From: a virus | DNA length: 64,000 bases | Strand: one strand, 5' to 3' | IMG/VR virus record: IMGVR_UViG_3300021437_000010 | Span: 30,552 to 94,551 of that record | Shown: in pieces, positions 30,483-40,291 of the stretch | Layout of the letters: each line of letters begins with the position of its first letter | How positions within the stretch are numbered: position 1 is the stretch's first letter | Notes under the pieces: model-generated | What the model was told of the DNA's origin: nothing | Databases searched by the model: none | Seen by the model: only the letters and a program-made list of their open reading frames with translations | Translations under genes and position numbers: made by a program

Positions 30483-30602
30483 CGAGTATACGCGCTGTCT
30501 TCACATTGGTGTATAATCGTCTTGACAAATCATTTTGAATACGGCATGCTATGAATGTACCACGAATGAGGTGCAAGAAACAGAAGTGAAAATGGAAAAA
30601 CA

Positions 30603-34248: not shown

Positions 34249-34277
34249 TTGCTTGTAGAGCCATTTTGTGGTATACT
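34249..34277 (+). promoter_or_regulatory. homing-endonuclease promoter A
   Basis: TTGCTT at 34249-34254, 17 bases, TATACT at 34272-34277 preceded by TGG. The region TTGTGGTATACTGA and the downstream GAGGTCAAATTGACATG are nearly identical to 39021-39052, in front of the GIY-YIG gene. Confidence 0.8.
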
Positions 34278-34357
34278 GATGAGGTCAAATTGACATGGTT
34301 TTGCCCCCGCGTAATTACAATTACCGGAGGCGTGATAACAAGGAGTTCACCCAAGTT

Positions 34358-35392
34358 ATGCCTAACAGTATACCAGAAAAGCCTACTCAGTGCGCATTCG
34401 ATTTTGAAGCGCTTACCGTTCAATCTTCTGAACAGGAAGTTTATAAATTTACTGAGCTTCATCCTCCCTCTATGAAGCAGTGTACTAGATGTAAGAAGCA
34501 CAAACCTGCGACGACTGAGTTTTTTAACCGCAAGAGAAAGACATCCCTTAATTCTTGGTGTAAACAGTGTATGACTGAATACATGAGAGAGAAGCGCGGG
34601 ACCCCTGAACCTCCTCCTGATGGATACAAACAGTGCAGTGTGTGCAAGCAAGTTAAACCCGCTACACGTGAGTTCTTTGAACGTAGCAGGACATTTCAAC
34701 GTCAGAGAGAGTCGAAATGCCGTCAATGTCAAGAACGAATTGCAATTGACAACCGTGAAGATTCGCAGCAATCTTTGAGACAATGTAGTGCATGTGAAAA
34801 GTGGAAACCAGCCACCATTGAGTTTTTTCACCAACGCAATGCCAGGAAATCGGGGCTGTCTTCTTGGTGTATAGACTGTCATCTTGGATACAACCAAGCG
34901 CATATAGAGAAACGCACGCAATACAATTTTGATTATCGTCAAACGCACAAAGAAGAGGCGCGTTTGAGCCTTAAGCGATGGAAGGAAAACAACAAGGAAT
35001 ACATCAGAACACGCAGTAGGAGATATTATATAGAAAACAAGGAACGGATGAATGAACATGGAAAGCAACACTATCGGTCTCATAGAGAACAAAGGAAAGC
35101 ACTCAATCGCAACCGACGCGCTCGCAAGAAAGCAATTCCTGGCACACTGACTGCTTCGCAGGTACAGCATAAGCTGCGATTGCAGCATTTCCGATGTTAC
35201 TATTGTTCTGCTAAGTTTGAGAGAAAAAATGGTAAGTACATCTACCATCTTGACCATATTGTTCCTCTTTCCCGCCCAGAAGCAGGGCCACGTCACGATA
35301 TGTCTTCTACTGCTATTGCTTGTCCTTGTTGTAACTTGAGTAAAGGGACAAAGCTGCCTCACGAGTGGCCTAATGGAGGTAGGCTTCTTTAA
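34358..35392 (+). CDS. HNH homing endonuclease with three zinc fingers
   Basis: About 344 residues from ATG 34358 (AAGGAG upstream, similar in position to the GIY-YIG start); an ATG at 34295 would add 21 residues but lies in the conserved leader. Three tandem modules of the form C-x2-C-K-x-x-K-P-A-T-x-E-F-F...C-x2-C (about residues 43, 83 and 127) are followed by a basic helix and a C-terminal HNH core (CYYCSAKF, HLDHIVPLSR, CPCCNLSKG). It is inserted on the opposite strand between lysis genes, and its stop overlaps the amidase stop by 3-4 bases. It looks like a free-standing homing nuclease. Confidence 0.85.
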   Translation: MPNSIPEKPTQCAFDFEALTVQSSEQEVYKFTELHPPSMKQCTRCKKHKPATTEFFNRKRKTSLNSWCKQCMTEYMREKRGTPEPPPDGYKQCSVCKQVKPATREFFERSRTFQRQRESKCRQCQERIAIDNREDSQQSLRQCSACEKWKPATIEFFHQRNARKSGLSSWCIDCHLGYNQAHIEKRTQYNFDYRQTHKEEARLSLKRWKENNKEYIRTRSRRYYIENKERMNEHGKQHYRSHREQRKALNRNRRARKKAIPGTLTASQVQHKLRLQHFRCYYCSAKFERKNGKYIYHLDHIVPLSRPEAGPRHDMSSTAIACPCCNLSKGTKLPHEWPNGGRLL

Positions 35393-36354
35393 GAGCTAGC
35401 GAGTTGTTTGATCTGCGCTAACTTAGTCTGTTCAGCTTGAAGTTCTTGAGCTAGCGTAGATTGTTGTAAAGACGCAATTTTCCCTTGCAGTATAGTGATC
35501 TGGGGGTCTTGTCCAACTCCTGAATCGATATGTGCCATATATACGGGACCCGTAGATCCAGGTGGGTTATCTATCAATCTGCTTGGATCATAAATAAGTA
35601 CCCCTCTTTCAAATCTTTGATATACTGTGCCTATCTTGCCTGCAATACCATTTTCTACCCCTGTAGGAAGACCGAGATGAGTAAGACCACATAAGGCATC
35701 TCCACCAAACTTGCGGTAAAAGTCTAGTATCGCATGCCCAATAACAAAGCCGTTTTTACATGTCCACATTGTATTATCGGTGCCTGAAAAGTGGCTGGCT
35801 ACTGTTGGATTAGTTAAATCTATTGTCATAGGTTGGTCTCCTCCATTTAAGTAAGTCCAGAGAGCATTCCAGTCCAGAGCCCCTGGACATCTAGCGCGAT
35901 TTATTGGGTCGATGGATGCATGGGGAGCTATACCAGTATTGTTATCAGCTTCATGCATACCTATGCCGTTCCGTTGGCAGATGTCTTTTATGAGTGCAAA
36001 ACTTGATTTTTGCTGTTCTGGAGTAAGAGCATTTGAATTATCGGTTGATAATTTTACGTGCTCTATACTGATAGTATAGTAATTCGGGTTTCCAGTCCAA
36101 TTAGGATTGTTTACGACACCGTTAGCATAGCTTCCATCCTTCTCACTAATGGTTTGTACTACAGTTCCATCTTGACCTACAATGTAATGTGAGCTTACAG
36201 GCTCACTCCCACCTTCAGTGCTTTTGAAATAATCTGCAATGCCTTGGGCACTAGACCCGCCAGCAGTACCGTGAACTATTATAAAGCTTTTCTTGCCTGT
36301 GTCGGGGAAGAAGTTATTATTAGGGGACCATATGGCACTAGGATAATCAGGCAT
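35389..36354 (-). CDS. N-acetylmuramoyl-L-alanine amidase (endolysin)
   Basis: A 321-residue protein. The N-terminal 170 residues are an Amidase_2 domain: IIVHGTAGG (first zinc His), ISIEHVKLS, HASIDPINRARCPG (second His and Cys ligand). It cleaves the bond between muramic acid and the peptide of the host wall. The C-terminal part (about 180-275) has a repeat-like wall-binding region and the last 30 residues are a coiled coil (LQGKIASLQQSTLAQELQAE). It overlaps the holin gene by 8 bases. Confidence 0.9.
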   Translation of the reverse strand: MPDYPSAIWSPNNNFFPDTGKKSFIIVHGTAGGSSAQGIADYFKSTEGGSEPVSSHYIVGQDGTVVQTISEKDGSYANGVVNNPNWTGNPNYYTISIEHVKLSTDNSNALTPEQQKSSFALIKDICQRNGIGMHEADNNTGIAPHASIDPINRARCPGALDWNALWTYLNGGDQPMTIDLTNPTVASHFSGTDNTMWTCKNGFVIGHAILDFYRKFGGDALCGLTHLGLPTGVENGIAGKIGTVYQRFERGVLIYDPSRLIDNPPGSTGPVYMAHIDSGVGQDPQITILQGKIASLQQSTLAQELQAEQTKLAQIKQLASS

Positions 36355-36559
36355 TAGTTTGCTCCTTCTGCACAGTTACGCGCTCAATAGGTGGCATCAC
36401 TGCATTTTGCACTATCTCTCCAGGTGATTTGAACCACCATCCTATCACTATTGCCGCTATAGCAATAACTGTCTCTTTTGAGCTTGGAGATATCCAAACA
36501 AGAAAGCTGCAAAAGACAATCACCATCGCGCTTACAGCAGCATACGGCCAAAGGTTCAT
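36347..36559 (-). CDS. holin-like membrane protein
   Basis: A 70-residue protein from ATG 36559 behind AGGAGG. Two membrane helices (NLWPYAAVSAMVIVFCSFLV and ETVIAIAAIVIGWWF) are joined by a short loop, with a charged C-terminus. Size, topology and the neighbouring amidase fit a holin that makes the hole through which the endolysin acts. Confidence 0.7.
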   Translation of the reverse strand: MNLWPYAAVSAMVIVFCSFLVWISPSSKETVIAIAAIVIGWWFKSPGEIVQNAVMPPIERVTVQKEQTNA

Positions 36560-36570
36560 ATTTCCTCCTT

Positions 36571-36900
36571 TTATGGTATGCATTCCCATATTCCAAATTT
36601 CAAAGTTCGTTGCGATGTTGTGCCTTTCTTGGCAACAACTCTTGTGTCATTCATTCCAGTCAATGCAGCATCAGCAGATGACAACGTGTACGTTATTTGC
36701 GCTGGATTTCCGCCACTGGCTGCTACTAGATTGCTAAATGTACCTGTGCCGTTTGTTGCTTGTTTATTCGAAATATTGATCATCACAAGTGTAAAGTCAG
36801 TTGTTGCTAGTCCTGTGATGTCAAAATTACCGCTATCAGGCACTAAGCTAAATGTCCATGGTGGCTTGCCATCTCCTTGGTTCCATGGTGAGATGCCCAT
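36571..36900 (-). CDS. BppU-like baseplate/tail domain protein
   Basis: A 109-residue protein. NQGDGKPPWTFSLVPDSGNF, then DITGLATTDFTLVMINISN, resembles the N-terminal domain of phage baseplate upper proteins (BppU/DUF2479), which describe a polymer of beta strands. It lies between the tail fibre and holin genes. Confidence 0.55.
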   Translation of the reverse strand: MGISPWNQGDGKPPWTFSLVPDSGNFDITGLATTDFTLVMINISNKQATNGTGTFSNLVAASGGNPAQITYTLSSADAALTGMNDTRVVAKKGTTSQRTLKFGIWECIP

Positions 36901-36901
36901 A

Positions 36902-38635
36902 TTATGCTCCTTTCAGTATAGCTATGCCGTCATGTGTATTGCCTGTTAAAATACCGTCGCGCGTATTGCCCAATGCTGATCCATCACGACCATAGCCAAC
37001 TGCCAAAATAATTATTGTTGGCAATACCGCCAATTGTGATAGCGATCCACTATCATTGCTGATATTCGACTCAACACCTGAATACGTGTCTAAAAATACT
37101 GCGATATCTACAGCGTTTAATGCTTCGATTGGAATATATATACTCGATATGATGAGTATGTCTGAGCCTGTGCTGACATCAACTCTCCAACTCTGCATGC
37201 CACCAAAATCAATACCCACCGAGCTGTCCGTGCCGTTCATATTGTTGGTTGTAATCCCTGCCGATTGCTGTGTAAGGCCACCGCTGCTTGCATCATCGAT
37301 AGTATTACTCTCTATGAGGATAGTATTATCGATAGCTAGTAGGCTGTCTGCACCCGACAAAGCCTCTACACCGTTCTGCTGCACGCCATTAATATCAGAG
37401 CCCGTACTAGCATCAACAGTCCATTGCTGAATACTGCCCAGGTCACTAACAGAATTGTTCTCAATTAGTACGGCCGTATCTATAAATATTGAGTCATCAA
37501 TGCCAGTATTGTTTTCTGTGAGTACTGTATTTACAGTATAAAGAGTATTATCTGAAATAGTATTGTTATCAATGAGGATTGTACTGGCCGTGGCTAATAA
37601 GTTGTCTGTTCCTGTAAGCGTATCGATCCCACCTTGCTGCATGCCGCCGACATCATTAGTTGTATTACTCTCTACAAAGACGGTGTTGTTTATAACAAGC
37701 AAAATATCAGATACGGTGTTATTGTCCGTAAATACGGTATTGTAAATATAGAGTGTAGAGTCGGAAATAGTATTATTTTCAACAAGATTTGTGTTCTCAA
37801 TTGCCAAGAGGCTATCAGCTCCAATATTGTTCTCGATCAAGACAGCATTATCAGTAAATAGGAGGCTATCTACTCCTGTAAGTGCCTCTATTCCCCATTG
37901 CTGTGTTCCTGATACATCACTTCCCGTAAGCGCTTCTATCCCTGATTGTTGAATACCGCCCACATCTGACCCAGTAAGTGCATCGACTCCCCAACTCTGC
38001 ATGCCACCAAGATCACTGCCTGTGTTGCTATCCGTGCCTGACATGGTGTTTGTGGTAACACCGCTGCCGTTATCGGTGACAGTCAGATGGTCGTAATATC
38101 CTGTTCCGCCTCCTGGTTGGAAGTATGCTCCATAGCGACCGGCGGCGGAGAAAGTTGAATCAGTCACGCTCAACTGCGGTGTGCCTGGTTCGCTATTTCC
38201 ATCAAGCCACACAGTTGCACTAAGTGAGGTATTGGATAACACCATGCGTATCCAACAATATTGGTTTGCGCCGTATGAGAAACTTGTGTTGGCAAGATTT
38301 GTGTGCGCATTTGATACAATCTTATCAAGATTGAACGTCTGACTATGTAAATAGGCCAGATAACCGTTAACTCCAGATGAGTAACGGCCAAACACTCCGA
38401 TATTTGTACCATTGGAGTCAGTGGCACAACGTATAAGAATATTGACGGGTGCAGACGTACCGGAGCTTATTTGAGCATAGAGATCATTTCCTACTACAGC
38501 GGTTCCTTCGTTAGAGGCAATATTCGTTGTGCTGACCACGCCAGACGTATCCATGGTATAAGTCGATCCATCACTGGCAGTACCCCAACCGCTTTGGTTT
38601 GTACGAATAAATGTATCAGTTGCAAGTGTTGTCAT
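36902..38635 (-). CDS. tail fibre with LamG-like head and repeat stalk
   Basis: About 577 residues from ATG 38635 (AAAGGAGG upstream). Residues 1-180 form a concanavalin/LamG-like carbohydrate-binding domain (DTFIRTNQSGWGTASDG, DHLTVTDNGSG). Residues about 185-540 are repeats of two units, GSDVGGIQQSGIEALTG-like and N-N-T-I-S-D-x-x-L-x-x-x-N-T-V-L-like, presumably stacking as a beta-solenoid stalk. The C-terminus is a short GN-T-R/H-DGI repeat. It is probably a receptor-binding fibre. Confidence 0.7.
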   Translation of the reverse strand: MTTLATDTFIRTNQSGWGTASDGSTYTMDTSGVVSTTNIASNEGTAVVGNDLYAQISSGTSAPVNILIRCATDSNGTNIGVFGRYSSGVNGYLAYLHSQTFNLDKIVSNAHTNLANTSFSYGANQYCWIRMVLSNTSLSATVWLDGNSEPGTPQLSVTDSTFSAAGRYGAYFQPGGGTGYYDHLTVTDNGSGVTTNTMSGTDSNTGSDLGGMQSWGVDALTGSDVGGIQQSGIEALTGSDVSGTQQWGIEALTGVDSLLFTDNAVLIENNIGADSLLAIENTNLVENNTISDSTLYIYNTVFTDNNTVSDILLVINNTVFVESNTTNDVGGMQQGGIDTLTGTDNLLATASTILIDNNTISDNTLYTVNTVLTENNTGIDDSIFIDTAVLIENNSVSDLGSIQQWTVDASTGSDINGVQQNGVEALSGADSLLAIDNTILIESNTIDDASSGGLTQQSAGITTNNMNGTDSSVGIDFGGMQSWRVDVSTGSDILIISSIYIPIEALNAVDIAVFLDTYSGVESNISNDSGSLSQLAVLPTIIILAVGYGRDGSALGNTRDGILTGNTHDGIAILKGA

Positions 38636-38704
38636 ATTGCCTCCTTTCTTCTCATATTTGCTATAAATGAGTGCACAGGAACGCCATGCACTCATTGCTC
38701 TTTT

Positions 38705-38923
38705 CTAGCTAATCTTTATTGTTACATGATGCCCTACAAGATTTTTAATAGCCGTAAGAGCTTCTACAGGTGCGTTGTACCAACGCCACACAATGGTTGT
38801 AGGCGAGCTATTCACAAGTTCGCATCCTTTGCCATCATGCTCAGCATGGATAGTTGATCGTATCGCATCGGTATTTGCGGTAACGATAATATGTTCTGTC
38901 GGTGTTGGTACGGTTTCTGGCAT
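38705..38923 (-). CDS. small tail-associated protein
   Basis: A 72-residue protein of beta character (IIVTANTDAIRSTIHAEHDG, VWRWYNAPVEALTAI). No family recognised; located between tail fibre genes in the late operon. Confidence 0.5.
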   Translation of the reverse strand: MPETVPTPTEHIIVTANTDAIRSTIHAEHDGKGCELVNSSPTTIVWRWYNAPVEALTAIKNLVGHHVTIKIS

Positions 38924-39003
38924 TGTAAACTCCTTATGTTCTAATTAATTGGAATGTGTCGAGTGAAAAGCAACGTTGAAAAGGCCGTAAATAGGCGGAG
39001 ATG

Positions 39004-39032
39004 TTGCTTTAGTGGCTGACTTGTGGTATACT
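39004..39032 (+). promoter_or_regulatory. homing-endonuclease promoter B
   Basis: TTGCTT at 39004-39009, 17 bases, TATACT at 39027-39032 preceded by TGG. It has the same boxes, spacing and downstream sequence as promoter A at 34249, followed in both cases by a hairpin and GTGATAACA. Confidence 0.85.
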
Positions 39033-39112
39033 GAAGAGGTCAAATTGACATGTGTTTGGCCCAGCGATGCTGAAACATCCTGAGCCGTGATAACAGAAAG
39101 TTGGTTTCTGCT

Positions 39113-40291
39113 ATGGATAGTATTGTACCTCAATCCGACCAAAAACACCAGCTCCGTAGTGACTATTATGTTTACTACCTCAATCGTCCCCCAAAACCTG
39201 ATACTCCTAGCCACCTTATTAACCCTGATGGAACTGTCACGTTCTATATAGGGAAAGGCAAAGGGGCTCGTTTTCAGCAACATGAATGGTGTGCTAAGAG
39301 AGAGCAAAAGTGTAGACATCTGACATGTCGTGTTATTCGGAAGGAATGGCGCAATGGCGGACAAATCGCCAAAGAGAAAGCCTACGAAGGCCTGACTGAG
39401 TCTGAATCTCACGAACTTGAAAAGGCACTTATCGCTTACGGGCGTTCGATCGGATTGCCATTGATCAATCTCACTGATGGGGGAGAGGGCATTTCTGGAT
39501 ACAAAGGTGATACTCACCCACCCTCGCAAAGAGAAAACCACCGCCAAAGCATGAAACGAAACTATTCTGACCCTGAGAAACTTGAACGCTTTCGGCAAGT
39601 TCATATTGAGTGGTGGGAGAATAACCACCAGGCACGTGAAGCAGTCAGAAAGAGATTTGAAGATCCTGCTGTACGTGCCAAGGCTGGTGAAGCAAACATC
39701 GGTAATGCCTACCATGCCAAGACATACGAAGGGTTTCAGAGCCCGATGGGTCAGGTCTATACAAACGTTCACCATCTCAAGAAGTTTTCTGAAGAGCACG
39801 GACTCCTTTCTGCCAAGATGTGTCAAGTAGCCAATGGAGAGAGACTCTCCCATAAAGGTTGGACTAGATATCCCCCGTTGGAGAGAGAGCAAAAACCGAC
39901 CTATGCAAAAGCGGGGTTCAAAGATCCGAACGGGGTCATTTATGAAGCTGAGTCCATCCCTAGCCTTACTGATTTTTGTCGTGAGCATGATTTGGCAAGG
40001 ACATGCATGACACAACTTGGAACAGGAACGCTTCATTCGCATAAAGGATGGACACGTTACCCTGAAATCAAGGCGGAACGAGACTATCACGGAACCTATA
40101 CGGGTCCGTCTCTTTTGAGCCCAGAGGGTACCGTGTACACCACTGAAGAGATCGATAATCTTACTGCTTTTTGTCATAAACATAACCTGCAAACTAGCAA
40201 TATGTCCCTTGTTGCTCAGGGAAAACAACGTGCCCACAAGGGGTGGACAAGATTCCGACCTGAAGACCCTGCCCAATCCACTCTGTTCTAA
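39113..40291 (+). CDS. GIY-YIG homing endonuclease with three C-terminal NUMOD-like repeats
   Basis: About 392 residues from ATG 39113. YYVYYLNRPP then FYIGKGKGARFQQHEW is the GIY-YIG nuclease core, with YIG and the catalytic Arg; EKALIAYGRSIGLPLINLTD holds the conserved Glu. After a basic linker three repeats of about 60 residues follow, each with S/D-P-x-G-x-V-Y...F-C/S-x-E/K-H-x-L...H-K-G-W-T-R, a NUMOD-type DNA-binding module. It lies on the + strand beside an intron-split tail gene on the minus strand, and is the likely partner for spreading of that intron. Confidence 0.9.
   Translation: MDSIVPQSDQKHQLRSDYYVYYLNRPPKPDTPSHLINPDGTVTFYIGKGKGARFQQHEWCAKREQKCRHLTCRVIRKEWRNGGQIAKEKAYEGLTESESHELEKALIAYGRSIGLPLINLTDGGEGISGYKGDTHPPSQRENHRQSMKRNYSDPEKLERFRQVHIEWWENNHQAREAVRKRFEDPAVRAKAGEANIGNAYHAKTYEGFQSPMGQVYTNVHHLKKFSEEHGLLSAKMCQVANGERLSHKGWTRYPPLEREQKPTYAKAGFKDPNGVIYEAESIPSLTDFCREHDLARTCMTQLGTGTLHSHKGWTRYPEIKAERDYHGTYTGPSLLSPEGTVYTTEEIDNLTAFCHKHNLQTSNMSLVAQGKQRAHKGWTRFRPEDPAQSTLF

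Follow-up and report, generated by a model that had tools for sequence, protein, structure and literature searches.

Our analysis points to a family of cis-encoded antisense RNAs that is likely to be transcribed from, and to repress translation of, mobile-element genes, and two members of which lie at the starts of two nuclease genes in the window, i.e., the whole 64,000-nucleotide stretch of DNA analysed here, which runs from base 30552 to base 94551 of a virus record of 94,551 bases. Sequence comparison establishes the structure, covariation, strand, promoter position, start-codon position and spread of this element.

Both nuclease genes, one of the HNH and one of the GIY-YIG type, run opposite in strand to the surrounding late genes, and the promoter TTGCTT-17-TATACT occurs ahead of each (Table 1). 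The original prediction held that the two genes share promoter, leader, hairpin and GTGATAACA despite having no protein domain in common, and both halves of that statement are borne out. A 28-mer, GGTATACTGANGAGGTCAAATTGACATG, recurs at 34270 and 39025 with zero mismatches (0 such matches expected in shuffles), with no third copy in the whole 94.5 kb virus record, and the hairpin and GTGATAACA sit at equal offset in the two cassettes. The proteins belong to different Pfam families (HNH versus a weak GIY-YIG match below the curated cut-off), and their direct comparison found no similarity (best E 0.59); being unrelated, they are not the product of a simple recent whole-gene duplication. Conservation of the sense promoter and of the GGTCAAATTGACATG block is limited to the group of phages to which the window belongs, as is the perfect GTCAAATTGAC palindrome, possibly an operator. 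A hammerhead-like CUGAUGAG text at 34277 was dropped as not conserved, the other copy reading CTGAAGAG, and CTGANGAGGTCAAATTGACATG was abandoned as the element core, being confined to the window plus two further records, with most looser matches due to chance. A near-identity search of INPHARED with the window gave no match.

Table 1. Features of the two nuclease cassettes, in positions of the window
Feature	Position	Strand	Remark
Sense promoter TTGCTT-17-TATACT of the HNH gene, extended -10 (TGG)	34249..34277	+	Identical in L003 and L004
GTCAAATTGAC palindrome, directly past the predicted sense start	34284..34294	.	Possible operator
Hairpin P1' of the antisense RNA: 7 bp + 5 bp, bulged G, UGUA loop	34303..34331	-	
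Hairpin P2', 5' end of the antisense RNA; spans ribosome-binding site and AU of the start codon	34335..34359	-	
Antisense extended -10 TGG-TATACT within HNH codons 4-6; predicted RNA start ~34360	34367..34375	-	
Complete antisense element, HNH copy	34303..34374	-	Covariance model R1, 68.7 bits
HNH homing-type endonuclease, 344 aa	34358..35392	+	
Sense promoter TTGCTT-17-TATACT of the GIY-YIG gene	39004..39032	+	
GTCAAATTGAC palindrome, second copy	39039..39049	.	
Hairpin P1' of the second antisense RNA; apical stem GAUGU/GCAUC	39058..39086	-	
Hairpin P2' of the second antisense RNA; perfect on the antisense strand only	39090..39114	-	
Antisense -10 box TACAAT within GIY-YIG codons 4-5; predicted RNA start ~39115	39122..39127	-	
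Complete antisense element, GIY-YIG copy	39058..39129	-	Covariance model R1, 76.0 bits
GIY-YIG endonuclease, NUMOD-like C-terminal repeats, 392 aa	39113..40291	+	Pfam matches below curated cut-offs

Read on the sense strand, the P1 hairpin is longer than earlier described, i.e., GCC-C-CCG-(C)-GUAAU..AUUAC-CGG-A-GGC, and includes a bulge as well as a C.A position. A second hairpin, P2, emerged unsought and pairs GTGATAAC with the start-codon region (GAU... with ...AUG), a pairing that beats re-dealt partners (0/2000). On the antisense strand, 24 sequences support 22 pairs with 92.1% of cells paired, and their double-changed cells number 113 versus 36 in shuffles, far above slid versions as well; in a larger set of 86 sequences, fitted to a covariance model, double changes occur at all 21 pairs (533 versus 150, 0/500 shuffles). 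The earlier reading of a conserved stem with changed bases as a selected RNA structure thus stands, with strong covariation of two hairpins, but the strand under selection is the antisense one. Across phyla, P1' is nearly invariant, keeping its bulged G and U.G-closed loop, while P2' varies freely, its sequence following the overlapping gene and its loop usually carrying an anti-Shine-Dalgarno stretch. The invariance of the bulged G and loop, set against the free variation of P2', suggests that P1' has a protein partner.

Several measurements bear on the choice of strand. Sense-read helices contain many A.C mismatches that are G.U wobbles on the other strand, where G.U pairs number 65 versus 6 A.C. 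The antisense strand folds better in most of the 24 instances, with an energy sum of -676.7 versus -558.1 kcal/mol for the sense strand; the respective values are -21.3 versus -17.2 kcal/mol for the element of the HNH cassette and -25.5 versus -18.8 kcal/mol for that of the GIY-YIG cassette, the sense strand also being able to form both hairpins, less stably. A helix search treating G.U and A.C alike returned 33:6 for the first 24 loci (p 5e-4) and 59:16 for 33 later-found loci (p 9e-7). Because the bacterial sequences were aligned by fitting to the model, only these two ratios, together with the -10 logo and the count of 17 genes in 20 described below, are to be taken as independent figures.

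The promoter evidence lies within the coding start itself. An A...TA pattern occupies codons 4-5 in 17/20 downstream genes, which are not all independent, versus 0.76% elsewhere in the same genes (p about 1e-33); the remaining early codon pairs that were tested gave 0-1 of 20. In the 17 genes, codon 5 is ATA, GTA or CTA regardless of amino acid, and the pattern means that the antisense strand carries a TANNNT -10 box at fixed spacing from the start codon, thus placing the predicted antisense RNA start near that codon. Loci found without using the -10 give an antisense logo of TA.A.T at sense +15..+10. The extended -10 G is present in 56/76; a weak TTG lies 17 bp upstream in the first set, outside which the -35 is weak. 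The S-I-V/P-P peptide once noted at the start of both nucleases is indeed a common N-terminus, but is mainly a by-product of the antisense -10 box and hence mainly a DNA signal. A U-rich, intrinsic-terminator-like tract follows P1' in the Rep/Actinomycetota type; in the phage group of the window there is no U-run after P1' (AAAACC, AAACAC) and no visible terminator.

These data bear directly on an alternative in which the element is a sense 5'-UTR structure, the nuclease mRNA folding to hide its own ribosome-binding site as in T4 I-TevI or Aeh1 mobE. Sense P2 does pair GAUAAC with GUUAU(G) and loop out the Shine-Dalgarno sequence, and control of this kind is known from the homing endonuclease genes of T4 (PMC2988022). 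We nonetheless regard this as unlikely, given that the sense-helix mismatches are A.C where the other strand has G.U, that the antisense fold is stabler, that the conserved -10 faces the opposite way, and that locus L115 retains the hairpin with its start codon outside the stem. As the structured RNA is antisense, with its own predicted promoter inside codons 4-5, the element is probably not a sense 5'-UTR leader.

The original prediction called for a covariance-model search for the leader in other genomes, and such a search now yields many phage and bacterial copies before varied genes. The P1 hairpin pattern detected about 24 distinct copies in virus contigs, and a pattern on P1' alone detected 38 virus contigs, every one confirmed by R2 or R1. 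A pattern scan of 257 Gb of genomes gave 28 matches, of which 1 was true, the other 27 being chance matches with unpaired apical stems. In phage records, true copies score at least 43 bits with model R1 and chance matches at most 25 bits, and some phages hold several R1 copies, each with a different nuclease gene. Among bacteria, the element occurs in 46/347 Actinomycetota, 18/350 Chloroflexota and 2/146 Cyanobacteria genomes, with scores dropping to about 28 bits such that the weakest copies are uncertain; the retrained model R2 found it in 0/200 Bacillota and 0/200 Pseudomonadota genomes. Two weak model matches, L143 (a repeat array) and L145, were treated as false and excluded from the start-codon and -10 tallies, while being retained in alignment A3 and model R2.

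Neither strand of the element is matched by any Rfam 15 family (HEARO, 6C, RNA-OUT and ctRNA families included), and no description of such an RNA family was found in the open-access literature. Known RNAs do occur as neighbours of the element, distinct from the element itself: a HEARO RNA at L030 545-807 (-), on a phage contig also holding an antisense element, and a group I intron at L014 36-273 (-), close to an HNH copy. An int-alpA RNA match at L022 2162-2229 (-), in the vicinity of a primase gene's antisense element, is near threshold (30.7 bits versus a cut-off of 35.8) and was rejected as lying at another place and in another sequence.

The genes beneath the element are diverse. Hairpin-pattern copies precede HNH, EndoVII, AP2-HNH, GIY-YIG, primase-polymerase, Rep and helicase genes, and the P1'-pattern contigs again feature nuclease genes, including LAGLIDADG. 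Pfam families downstream comprise HNH types, Endonuclease_7, AP2, Cas1 (6), Prim-Pol, REP_ORF2, integrase, resolvase, transposase and ArdC; replication initiators (Prim-Pol, REP_ORF2) would be the targets in some copies, nucleases being commoner. In Gordonia phages, a copy scoring only 28.2 bits with R2 lies at the start of a tyrosine integrase gene. The start codon of an ORF of at least 60 aa falls within 5 nt of the expected place at 62/82 and 28/32 loci, compared with 11-13% at random places. Starts of cas1-like genes are overlapped in Actinomycetota/Chloroflexota genomes (L129, L131, L139, L163 and L172, as well as L219-L221), and no other recognisable cas genes were seen among the neighbouring ORFs of three cas1 loci when their translations were inspected by eye. 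At the Cas1 loci the element occupies a short gap between co-directional ORFs, which makes control likelier at translation than at a sense promoter.

Certain Chloroflexota copies (L126, L128, L130, L134, L138, L140 and L146) stand alone, without start-codon overlap. Several of these lie beyond a sense-strand terminator, and several have a CCU-type P2' loop, as might be expected if the element were a stand-alone, trans-acting small RNA, its gene often situated at the 5' ends of mobile genes and its anti-Shine-Dalgarno loop targeting other mRNAs; the near-invariance of P1' across phyla is likewise compatible. This nevertheless appears improbable, since in 76-88% of cases the copy extends over a single gene's start codon with fixed spacing, and P2' follows the sequence of that gene.

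The antisense promoter might instead face outward, driving neighbouring phage genes on the antisense strand via a leader and thereby sparing them from silencing by nuclease insertion. Reading along the antisense strand does lead into a gene 70-135 nt onward in the window, L004 and L014, and T4 nuclease genes carry promoters for their neighbours (PMC2988022). At L120, the elements (1729-1800 and 2102-2172) belong to nuclease genes arranged back to back, so that the predicted antisense RNAs face each other over a 300-base gap with no such gene between, and U-rich tracts follow P1' in many copies; we thus consider outward expression very improbable as the role of the element.

The original prediction also proposed that nuclease bodies are exchanged behind a common control element, and here the lysin loci are informative. 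A pattern of promoter plus 15-mer gave two further phage records, L003 (AP2-HNH gene) and L004 (EndoVII gene), in which, as in the window, the nuclease adjoins a homologous lysin gene (56-57% identity; with a small gene between in L004). The nuclease family differs at each of the three loci (HNH, AP2-HNH, EndoVII), while the leader and first ~20 codons are near-identical, thus supporting body exchange behind a shared front end in this group; the position of the element before many unrelated genes is in keeping. Some 20 N-terminal residues (SIPEK.TQ.TF.FDAL; 34358-34420, + strand) are common to the HNH nuclease of the window, L003, L004, L014 and L116, whose HNH, AP2-HNH and EndoVII nucleases are otherwise unrelated; this likeness past codon 5 is not explained by the antisense promoter. 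For the further suggestion that the leader is by itself a mobile unit, no evidence was found. That the element acts as DNA, its folded single strand being a site of recombination or replication (an attC-like site or a HUH target) and so aiding body exchange, is most unlikely, for while a bulged one-strand hairpin near mobile genes and the exchange at the lysin locus would suit it, it would predict neither a sigma-70 -10 at fixed spacing nor a fixed place over start codons, and the bodies differ by gene rather than by flanking repeats.

We thus return to the cis-antisense reading, for which the following steps are proposed. A sigma-70-type promoter (extended -10, weak -35) in nuclease codons 4-6, facing upstream, would start transcription of a small RNA, some 60-80 nt long, close to the start codon. 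Its 5' hairpin P2', complementary to the ribosome-binding site and start codon, would be followed by a short linker and by the 3' hairpin P1' with its invariant bulged G and U.G-closed loop. Pairing of this RNA with the nuclease mRNA would block translation initiation, steps that we infer from known cis-antisense systems (RNA-OUT, ctRNA), and the DNA-cutting or DNA-moving enzyme would thereby be kept scarce. A broader proposal, to which we would give slightly under an even chance, is that the element is a portable antisense module of one fold, taken up by mobile-element genes that are unrelated to one another (homing nucleases of at least five families, recombinases, initiators and Cas1) in Actinomycetota, Chloroflexota, Cyanobacteria and their phages, in which P1' would be read by a common host factor, and promoter, RNA and ribosome-binding site would move together with bodies swapped behind them.

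Antisense RNAs on mobile genes have usually been described one element at a time. If the proposal is true, one structured family over nuclease, integrase, initiator and Cas1 starts in three phyla would constitute an RNA brake common to selfish elements. The restraint of free-standing homing endonucleases outside T4 becomes directly testable, the covariance model annotates start codons and mobile genes, and a possible RNA-binding partner is indicated in Actinomycetota and Chloroflexota.

Among known systems, CfrI of cyanophage S-PM2 (PMC12197685) is likewise an antisense RNA of a phage with a homing endonuclease gene close by; unlike the element here, CfrI has its gene between psbA and that for the endonuclease, and it is linked to psbA, with no such structure or position reported. 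The cluster A mycobacteriophages Alma and RedRock express a non-coding RNA in the prophage (PMC7157519) which, like the element, is an actinophage non-coding RNA; model R2 gave no match in the Alma or RedRock region. In T4 and Aeh1, hairpins that sequester the ribosome-binding site limit translation of the homing endonucleases I-TevI, segB and mobE (PMC2988022), a limit at the RNA level similar to that which we infer here. Those are sense hairpins with late-promoter escape, the T4-type promoter making transcripts that lack the 5' half of the hairpin, whereas the strand selected here is antisense by G.U polarity and stability, and the sense promoter lies upstream of both hairpins.

Similar in design are the countertranscribed RNAs of plasmids, short antisense RNAs over the ribosome-binding site of the initiator that control rep; the primase and Rep copies here have a U-tract after the last hairpin, and the copies in the phage group of the window have none. 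The present structure differs in matching no Rfam ctRNA family and in being kept over unrelated genes, i.e., nucleases, integrases and Cas1 besides rep. RNA-OUT of IS10 and art200 of IS200 are antisense to a translation start and have their own promoter. Both are cis antisense RNAs that down-regulate transposase (PMC4963395), and the element resembles them as a small, structured RNA that lies antisense over the point where translation of a DNA-mobility gene begins and that has a predicted promoter of its own. RNA-OUT and art200, however, each belong to a single insertion sequence, while the element, without an Rfam match, presents one structure over many unrelated genes in three phyla.
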